From positions 4,425,096 through 4,489,095 of the forward strand of contig CAIIXF020000006.1 of the NCBI GenBank assembly GCA_903813345.2: a DNA stretch of 64,000 nt, given 5' to 3'. The position numbers and the translations under genes were made by a program. Positions within the stretch are counted from its first letter, which is position 1. Each line of letters begins with the position of its first letter. The notes under the pieces were generated by a model. That model was not told where the DNA came from and did not search any database. It saw only the letters and a list, made by a program, of their open reading frames with translations. Below are positions 16,901 to 19,900 of the stretch, in pieces. This DNA is from Owenia fusiformis. Taxonomy: Eukaryota > Annelida > Polychaeta > Sabellida > Oweniidae.

Positions 16901-19900
16901 TTATGACATGGTTTGTCCAAGTTTTGTGTACTTGTCATACGATGACTCAGCTGCAACAACTGCCTTCCCTGTGTTTTCTCCGCGAAGCATTCCCATGAAA
17001 GCCTCGGGCATTTTCTCGAATCCTTGTGTCACGTGCTCTCTGACCTTCACCTTACCCTACAATTACAGAATGGTTAAACTAGAGAGGGAGAGCTCCGATG
17101 TCCTTTTCCATAGGTATGACCTTTGAAAGCCCCCGTTGCAACTGGATACGCCTAACCAAATCATCATGAGAAACCATGGCCTTTTATTAATTTCTTTCTT
17201 GATCTTTCAATCGTTTTTTATAAAGCTTTTGTATCAGTTTGAACATGAAGTAAATGCCTCACCTCTTTTATCCACTCTATCATTTGCATCAGACCTTTAG
17301 GCCAACTATCTTTCCATCGGTTTACAATAAACCCTTCACTGCGTAGCTGTTTACTGACCATCAGCCCGAATATATAAGGACCTGAATAACACACGATGGT
17401 ACAAGTGTTTAAACAATAACATGAAAACAATACACTCATCTTACTAAGTAGAAGAAGTCTTTCAGATTTGTCGATCATTTTTACTAGATACATTCTCCAC
17501 GAAACGTGCATGACGAATGTCGTTGTTGGTTAACAAAAGTGCTCTTCAGATAGATATCATTATTTTTTCATTATTTAAAAATTGATTACAATCTGGAAAG
17601 ATATTTAACATTAAGCGTGAACAAAATGTTAATTTTTAAAATGGCCAGGTTTAGATTAGCAAACCATAATTTAAGAATTGAAACAGGGAGACACGAGAAA
17701 AAGAAAAAAGATGGCACTAAACAGCATCGACTTGAAATAAATGAAAGAATTTGTCAGATTTGCAAAAAGGGGGAAGTAGATGATGAAAAACATTTTCTTC
17801 TTGTGTGTGACGGCTATAAAAATGTAGATTTGAATTTTTTAATAAACTAAGTTTCATCGACACATTTGATAATATGTCGGATGAAGAAAAATATAACTTT
17901 TTAATGACTTCTGATGATTTTGAAATTGTTAACGAATTGATACATTTTATAAATAACTTTTTAATCAGCGTCGGGAGCTATTTGAAAAAAAAATTAGATT
18001 GTATGATAGTATTTGTGAAACAATGCATGTTGTTTTTTAACTGTATAATTATATGTAAATGTCTTGTAATTGATTTTGTGAGGAAACCAAGTGTTTGGTT
18101 TGAAACACAATAAAATCTTGAATCTTGAATCTTATTTTGAACAAAAAGTCTATCCAATGCAGATTGCTTTGAAAGGTAGCCTTAAAAGGTAGCCTTGATA
18201 TGGCTAGACACTAGGAAGGGACATGAAAAAGAAAATATCATAATGTATTCAAAACACTTTTTACTAAAACTTTGAAAATTATGTCCAATCACATCCTCTT
18301 TTCAAAAATGTTGAGTCGAATACTCTCATTTCCGATAAGCCTCCCTCAACCGTTTCCTGATTATTCAATTAAAATAAGTTACCCGTTGCAACTTCTGTAT
18401 CATTGTAAGATGAGATGGCGCCACAGTTCGCAATCCTGCCAAATAGATTCATATGATTCATCACCGTCACCGCAGTCATGCCACCAACCTATGAAGAACA
18501 ATGTAGCTAAACAAATTACAAACAGAACTGAATCTTGCCAAATAGATTCATATGATTCATCACTGTCACCGCAGTCATGCCACCAACCTATGAAGAACAA
18601 TGTAGCTAAACAAATTACAAACAGAACTGAATCTTGCCAAATAGATTCATATGATTCATCACTGTCACCGCAGTCATGCCACCAACCTATGAAGAACAAT
18701 GTAGCTAAACAAATTACAAACAGAACTGAATCCTGCCAAATAGGTTCATATGATTCATCACTGTCACCGCAGTCATGCCACAAACCCATGAAGAACAATG
18801 TAGCTCAACAAATTACAAACAGAACTGAATCCTGCCAAATAGGTTCATATGATTCATCACTGTCACCGCAGTCATGCCACCAACCTATGAAGAACAATGT
18901 AGCTCAACAAATTACAAACAGAACTGAATCCTGCCAAATAGATTCATATGATTCATCACTGTCACCGCAGTCATGCCACCAACCTATGAAGAACAATGTA
19001 GCAAAACAAATTACAAACAGAGCTGAATCCTGCAATCCTGCCAAACATATTCATATGATTCATCACTGTCACCGCAGTCATGCCACCAACCTATGAAAAA
19101 TAATGTAGCTAAACAAATTACAAACAGGACTGAATCCTGCCAAATAGATTCATATGATTCATCACTGCCACCGCAGTCATGCCACCAACCTATGAAGAAC
19201 AATGTAGCAAAACAAATTACAAACAGAGCTGAATCCTGCAATCCTGCCAAACATATTCATATGATTCATCACTGTCACCGCAGTCATGCCACCAACCTAT
19301 GAAGAATAATGTAGCTAAACAAATTACAAACAGGACTGAATCCTGCCAAATAGATTCATATGATTCATCACTGCCACCGCAGTCATGCCACCAACCTATG
19401 AAGAACAATGTAGCAAAACAAATTACAAACAGAACTGAATACGCCAAGATATAATCTACTTTGTGTTGGGTGGGCAGTTATTATTTTGAGGCAGTTTTCT
19501 TTGCTGTTTTCATATGATTCATCACTGTCACTGCAGTCGTGCCTCTAACCTATGAAGAACAACGTAGCAAAGATTGCACACAGAACTGAATCCTGCAATC
19601 CTGCCAAATAGATTCATATGACTTTCACTGTATTGTCTACTTGTGTAAAAAAACGCAGATTGCAAACAGATCTTAGTACACCAAGGTTTCGTCTGCTTTG
19701 TGTTCGATGGGGATTCATATACTTGACTTATCATTTTGAGACCGGTGAAGTTTTCCTTTGAGGTTTTCCCCTGAAACAAGTGTTCCTATTCTGAAAAAAT
19801 TATTGCGCATTAAGCACTTATGAAGGACAAGTGTTGCTATGATATTATGAAACAATGGAAATGCGACAATAAACCCAATATATTGTACCATATTGGACAA

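Follow-up and report, generated by a model that had tools for sequence, protein, structure and literature searches.

Gene A, a PTGR1-like gene on the minus strand of the window (the whole 64,000-nucleotide stretch of DNA analysed here), carries a real tandem array across the boundary between intron 6 and exon 7. We interpret this array, with a probability of roughly 80%, as a boundary-spanning minisatellite, or 'mirage', which was duplicated and amplified, and which is tolerated as its decoy splice sites are orphans. We propose that such tolerance arises because only the 3'-most acceptor is attached to a whole exon and its 5' splice site. This reading draws on the structure of the array, the sequence of its junctions, the comparison of three paralogues, the lack of any sign of selection on the decoys, and the recurrence of similar arrays in other genes.

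PTGR1 is an NADPH-dependent prostaglandin/leukotriene B4 reductase. Membership of gene A in this family is indicated by a near full-length match to a known structure, residues 1-328 of 343 being aligned with the PTGR1 structure PDB 1v3t (E 8.4e-108), and by a match to 2y05 (Prostaglandin reductase 1; E 2.8e-102). The minus strand of the window carries two such genes in tandem, A and B (a slash marks a splice boundary here and below):

16901 to 23705, minus strand: gene A, PTGR1-like, 343 aa in nine exons, with an intact frame, GT-AG introns and a match to PDB 1v3t
23705-23600, 22986-22941 and 22537-22481, minus strand: gene A exons 1 to 3
21520-21353, 20560-20443 and 20076-19921, minus strand: gene A exons 4 to 6
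18488-18383, 17381-17263 and 17056-16901, minus strand: gene A exons 7 to 9
18383 to 18488, minus strand: real exon 7 of gene A, 106 nt, the whole exon with its 5' splice site CGG/GTAACT
36693 to 44346, minus strand: gene B, tandem paralogue of gene A, nine intact exons
40521-40369 and 37793-37688, minus strand: gene B exons 6 and 7

A third paralogue, gene C (L001), lies on the other strand of the same contig, ~850 kb from the genes of the window. A search of the whole genome with the 99-bp repeat unit gave matches at genes A, B, and C only (four candidates, all scored, the counts being lower bounds), and a 127-residue piece of gene A found close matches at the same three genes only, plus four weak ones (30-34%). 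Three of these weak matches (C7:1214332, C10:35449930, and C7:19564224) fall within uninterrupted frames of more than 2,200 residues (2285, 2255, and 2262, respectively); from their size and the match, we would guess that they are intronless enzymes of the PKS/FAS type. The donor of exon 8 is GTCAGG in gene B (37029-37024) and GTGAGG in genes A and C. Just 3' of the last exon of gene A, a 164-bp unit occurs twice with 98% matches (window 16377-16706).

The array at exon 7 of gene A is made of the following parts:

18432 to 19631, minus strand: acceptor-side array ('mirage') at intron 6/exon 7 of gene A, ten decoys and an acceptor-less fragment
19549, 19395, 19296, 19189 and 19090, minus strand: starts of decoy exons 1 to 5
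18983, 18884, 18785, 18686 and 18587, minus strand: starts of decoy exons 6 to 10

Tandem Repeats Finder reports the interval 18432-19447 with a period of 99, 10.1 copies, and a score of 1713, far above chance, which bears out the array noticed in the initial annotation; the end of exon 6 given there, at 19921, is also correct. The 99-bp unit consists of 42 bp of intron end and 57 bp (19 codons) of exon 7. The earlier count of about 11 decoys needs refinement, as we find ten decoy acceptors, nine of them with AG at the homologous place (decoy 18785 reads CATGG), plus one acceptor-less fragment near 19623, upstream of the decoys. The spacing of 99 bp, which had been ascribed to each unit, applies to most. 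Two spacings (19296-19189 and 19090-18983) measure 107 bp because they contain 8 additional bases, and the distance between the first decoy (19549) and the next is 154 bp, which includes other sequence. If read on to the donor of the real exon 7, all ten decoys reach a stop in frame, as had been stated, but the ending GRIQFCL proposed for the truncated product is exact in three only; four have one-residue variants of it (GRIQSCL or GKIQFCL), and the remaining three meet other stops, after 22, 39, and 39 residues.

Concerning the origin of the unit, exon 7 reads ...GGCAGGATTGCG and the flank 5' of the second decoy reads ...GGCGTATTCAGTTC, while the junction between units is GGCAAGATTCAGTTC as printed, and GGCAGGATTCAGTTC in gene C. 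A 3-bp ATT occurs both at +55 to +57 of exon 7 and at -45 to -43 of intron 6, so that a break can be placed there, which suggests a duplication aided by microhomology. In such a break-repair origin, a break at the shared ATT would have led to the tandem duplication of 99 bp spanning the junction of intron 6 and exon 7, and the unit would have been amplified by unequal exchange.

The decoys would be passed over by exon definition, that is, the 3'-most acceptor would be chosen by recognition across the exon and the decoys would leave with the intron. Paired with the real donor, the nearest decoy would give an exon of 205 nt in A and of 197 nt in B. Exon definition by itself would allow such sizes, so that a further factor may be required for the last acceptor to be preferred. 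On a small splice-site matrix derived from the three paralogues themselves, the best GT inside one unit scores 1.8 against 6.8 for the real donor. This matrix includes 21 acceptors, of which 7 are independent; it gave low scores to all exon 7 acceptors, whether real or decoy, and we did not rely on it for acceptors. Most decoys read CATAG/GTTGGT or a near variant, with a GT straight after the acceptor, and such AG/GT junctions might serve as ratchet points for recursive splicing through intron 6. This we regard as barely credible, since GTTGGT makes a weak donor (it scores -2.9 on the same small matrix, where the real donors reach 6.8-11.8), intron 6 is only 1432 bp long, and other arrays in the genome lack AG/GT (e.g. 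AG/TT in L015).

Gene A has arrays at both an acceptor (exon 7) and a donor (intron 3), the latter being:

21698 to 22480, minus strand: donor-side array in intron 3 of gene A, units of ~91 bp

The unit of this array copies the final ~13 nt of exon 3 along with AAA/GTAAGT. The authentic GTAAGT lies at 22480 and the decoys at 22413, 22316, 22099, 22008, 21847, and 21756, five of the six carrying the nine bases AAAGTAAGT of the real donor. An immediate TAA is met when exon 3 is read past its true donor. We found no copies of the exon 3 donor beyond the donor itself in gene B (by search) or in gene C (in the printed sequence).

Genes B and C also carry copies of the exon 7 boundary, which, like the donor-side array of intron 3, come in addition to the single array of gene A covered by the initial annotation. 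In gene B these are:

37829 to 40199, minus strand: acceptor-side array of gene B, in two blocks, with 15 decoys whose exon starts run from 40169 to 37884
38092 to 39008, no strand assigned: 917-bp transposon-like insertion with inverted ends (ATGACGTGTCGC.../...GCGACACGTCAT), which splits the array of gene B

AG is present at the homologous place in 12 of the 15 gene B decoys, and all 15 reach an in-frame stop. In the single decoy of gene C, other sequence stands in place of the acceptor end (AG 0/1). The copy number of decoys by paralogue is therefore 10 in A, 15 in B, and 1 in C. With unit 19549 left out, the mean difference among units is 0.045 within A, 0.141 between A and B, and 0.185 within B, the last value indicating that the array of B is not homogenised overall. 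Tandem arrays are frequently misassembled, and one may ask if the structure is an artefact of assembly. We hold this to be very improbable, since the array of B differs from that of A (mean unit difference of 0.14, with the same unit left out) and is split by an insertion, and since 11 such structures are present among 41 arrays in two independent gene samples (see below).

The units evolve in concert within their cluster, as they group by gene (4 changes for A and 4 for B, against 9.0 and 9.8 when shuffled), a result that near-copies help. In the unit tree, where 13 of the 24 inner branches are poorly supported, three B units are grouped with seven A units (support 88/83), and those three B units are held together with 95/86. 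This tree weakly suggests that the array may be older than the duplication that gave rise to A and B.

A 5-bp deletion in the pyrimidine tract and a codon AGT (N to S) are common to the real exon 7 of gene B and its decoys 39584 and 39490, decoy 39297 having the deletion without the AGT codon; neither character is found in the 11 gene A units or in the real exon 7 of gene C. This indicates that real and decoy copies have exchanged sequence, in either direction. A G carried by the same three copies of B was discarded as a private character, being also present in unit 19549 of A. It could be imagined that the decoys form a reservoir of exon 7 variants feeding the real exon by gene conversion, and the deletion and AGT codon of B are what such a role would leave behind. 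We consider this highly unlikely, since any tandem array gives exchange, the data fit either direction, and the real exons of A and B differ from that of C by one replacement in the 57 nt covered by the repeat.

The three genes are under purifying selection, with dN/dS values of 0.10 between A and B (dS 0.147), 0.10 between A and C (dS 0.242), and 0.11 between B and C (dS 0.277). All decoys lead to stops in A (10/10) and in B (15/15), yet the genes have a dN/dS of 0.10-0.11; these values and the intact frames suggest that ordinary mRNA may be made despite the array. Concerning the decoys, their distinct changes with respect to the exon of C amount to 10 synonymous and 31 nonsynonymous, the possible changes being 39:132 (p 0.84), in a count that includes the poorly aligned ends of units 19549, 39297, and the C decoy. 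The corresponding ratio for the real exons of A and B is 4:1 (p 0.025 against the decoys). A stricter count, restricted to the first 45 nt and without 19549, 39297, and the C decoy, gives 7:20 for the decoys, with possible changes of 31:104 (p 0.80), and 3:1 for the real exons (p 0.087). The coding parts of the decoys look unconstrained under both counts, and the contrast between decoys and real exons, resting on very few changes, is only suggestive; it is from the whole-gene dN/dS, not from this contrast, that the constraint on the genes follows.

Eight of nine A decoys (not counting unit 19549) and 12 of 15 B decoys keep AG; the mean over all dinucleotides of the unit is 8.5 in A and 12.1 in B, so that the decoy AGs appear neither guarded nor purged. 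The initial annotation had left a choice between a splicing-based brake on expression and a tolerated accident. In the former, decoys would be used at a set rate, leading to nonsense-mediated decay of some of the transcript and tuning the output of enzyme, which would fit the AG kept in nine of ten A and 12 of 15 B decoys, each leading to a stop. We find such a brake unlikely, as this retention is just that of the average dinucleotide, as copy number and signals differ among the three paralogues, gene C having one decoy without an acceptor, and as the same structure is present in myosin and chaperonin genes. A tolerated accident agrees with what we see, namely recurrence in unrelated genes at close to the rate of random placement, purifying selection on the genes, and drift of the decoys.

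The recurrence was assessed in two gene samples. The myosin sample comprises 19 stretches (121,219 bp) with 74 of 92 Myosin_head matches, 18 lying outside, and the chaperonin sample 11 stretches (67,410 bp) with 54 of 60 TCP1/Cpn60 matches, 6 lying outside. After additions by protein comparison and curation by hand, the combined sample holds 163 exons and 41 tandem arrays (period of at least 25), which make up 9% of the bases. In curation, array copies that had been counted as exons were deleted (L015, L020, L024, L029, and L030), and exon ends were reset to the splice sites identified by eye (L015, L020, L024, L026, L028, L029, and L030). An exon end lies inside 11 of the 41 arrays, at eleven different exons, where circular shifts expect 12.9 (sd 2.4). 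By family, the figures are three of 26 arrays for myosin, with 7.6 expected (99.8% of shifts give as many or more), and eight of 15 for chaperonin, with 5.1 expected (5.1% of shifts give as many or more); before curation, 11 of 222 exon ends of the myosin set fell in arrays, with 14.4 expected. All eleven arrays were inspected by eye:

acceptor side: L015, L020, L026 (2874-2933), L028, L029, L030 (446-845)
donor side: L005, L024, L026 (846-1100), L030 (4572-5643 and 7116-7590)

With the real copy included, there are four splice strings each in L029 and L030 (446-845), and two each in L024, L028, and L026 (2874-2933); L015 has four, L020 five, and L005 four. The 53-bp array of L030 has 23 exact donor strings in 25 copies, the real copy and a second block (3332-3635) included. 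GT is lost in several copies of L026 (846-1100), and only a few exon bases are repeated in L005 and L026 (2874-2933). The idea of the exon boundary as a preferred seed was abandoned, as the shift test shows no enrichment (11 against 12.9 expected). Minisatellites are common here and cross boundaries at about the rate expected by chance, and the array is therefore not peculiar to PTGR1. The initial annotation had called a repeat straddling a functional splice junction unusual, which may be true elsewhere, but is not so in this genome (11/41 arrays), nor is it new, such structures having been published in amphioxus as 'mirages'.

In the myosin set, we also observed, in a row 5' of one myosin gene (C9:37986009-37994334), twelve matches that all cover one N-terminal part of the motor (profile ~18-84); they form a large cluster of what are probably alternative exons. 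Two further exons of this gene have a similar copy nearby (L002).

Taken together, exons with a boundary array number 11 of the 163 sampled (myosin, chaperonin) and are found in all three PTGR1 genes, one array having ~22 further exact donor strings. A broader proposal, to which we would give somewhat less than even odds, is that boundary-copying minisatellites are present genome-wide, that splicing tells identical sites apart by exon context alone, and that the arrays exchange sequence with the real exon. If true, the genome would provide a natural test, on a large scale, of exon definition and of how introns arise from tandem duplications.

Concerning the host, three exon matches to the Erythrocruorin linker family (PF16915) above the curated cut-off lie within 15 kb, and for one exon a match is found to 'Hemoglobin linker 1' (PDB 22jw, E 0.0019). 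To our knowledge, this family is confined to annelids, and the presence of an annelid haemoglobin-linker family means that the host is probably an annelid. GFP family genes are numerous in amphioxus; a genome search for this family (PF01353) gave no match, and as no control genome matched either, this counts only weakly against an amphioxus host. The searches for PF00379 (arthropod cuticle) and PF14830 (mollusc haemocyanin) likewise gave no match here or in any control genome, and a genome search for COX1 gave no match. The annelid Owenia fusiformis has a genome of 505.8 Mb in 12 chromosome-scale scaffolds, according to the available text of PMC9977687.

The window holds other repeats and mobile-element-like sequences. 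Arrays of a similar 32-bp unit are present at 3921-4061 and 5986-6056, ~2 kb apart. A 1000-codon open frame (31505-34507) has a reverse-transcriptase-like product with a motif DVEVNPGP near its start, which we take to resemble a 2A peptide. Nearly the same 180-codon frame is found twice on the minus strand, 5.8 kb apart (50641-51183 and 56486-57028), and the two copies look like both ends of an LTR element; between them lies a long frame with zinc-knuckle-like motifs (51750-55073).

Work on how the spliceosome decides among identical sites usually relies on artificial minigenes. In this genome, the competing sites are natural and nearly identical in their core, come in series of 1 to ~24, concern both donors and acceptors, and lie in constrained genes, and ordinary long-read RNA from the animal would measure the weight of position and of exon context.

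As for known systems, the insert of human CBS 844ins68 duplicates the acceptor of intron 7. This is a polymorphism with one extra copy, where gene A has an expanded array; the accessible part of the report describes an insertion in exon 8 with an alternative splice site and an mRNA that is mostly wild-type (PMC1334203). In human genes of segmental duplications, internal tandem repeats at exon-intron boundaries have been described in recently duplicated paralogues and are reported, in the portion available, to change splicing and form new introns (PMC2812944), whereas in A, B, and C the reading frame depends on the ordinary exon 7. In annelids, the excerpt available for the earthworm metallothionein gene describes intronic minisatellites, which are not boundary arrays (PMC12783039). 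Among the matches listed in our literature search, from which subscription papers were mostly absent, there was no report of a boundary array for an annelid, and nothing joining Owenia with minisatellite.

The closest likeness is to the mirages of amphioxus, a term that PMC3087553 (2010), in the text available, credits to a 2002 paper. This source describes them in the globins BflGb6 and BflGb9 and cites Adh3, and further cases are given for Adh, troponin C, and PGBD5 in the accessible part of PMC3902484. As far as these texts go, amphioxus mirages are, like the arrays described here, minisatellite-like tandem duplications over an intron-exon boundary, at a 5' or 3' splice site, in which many units keep AG or GT and evolve in concert (PMC3087553, PMC3902484); in our arrays too, the unit joins an intron end to the adjoining part of the exon, and many but not all units keep these dinucleotides. 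RT-PCR in amphioxus is said there to suggest that regular splicing is undisturbed by mirages, and boundary duplication is proposed as a route to new introns (PMC3087553). If the host is an annelid, mirages are no peculiarity of lancelets, and this route becomes testable in a second phylum. What seems new here is the instance itself, its doubling in one gene, and its frequency in one genome that is probably not that of a lancelet. Unlike in the amphioxus cases, the host is probably not a lancelet, copy number is higher (15 decoys in gene B and ~24 in one chaperonin gene, against the 3 and 6 units given for BflGb6 in the text available), donor and acceptor arrays are found in one gene, and the structure is present in all three gene families examined.
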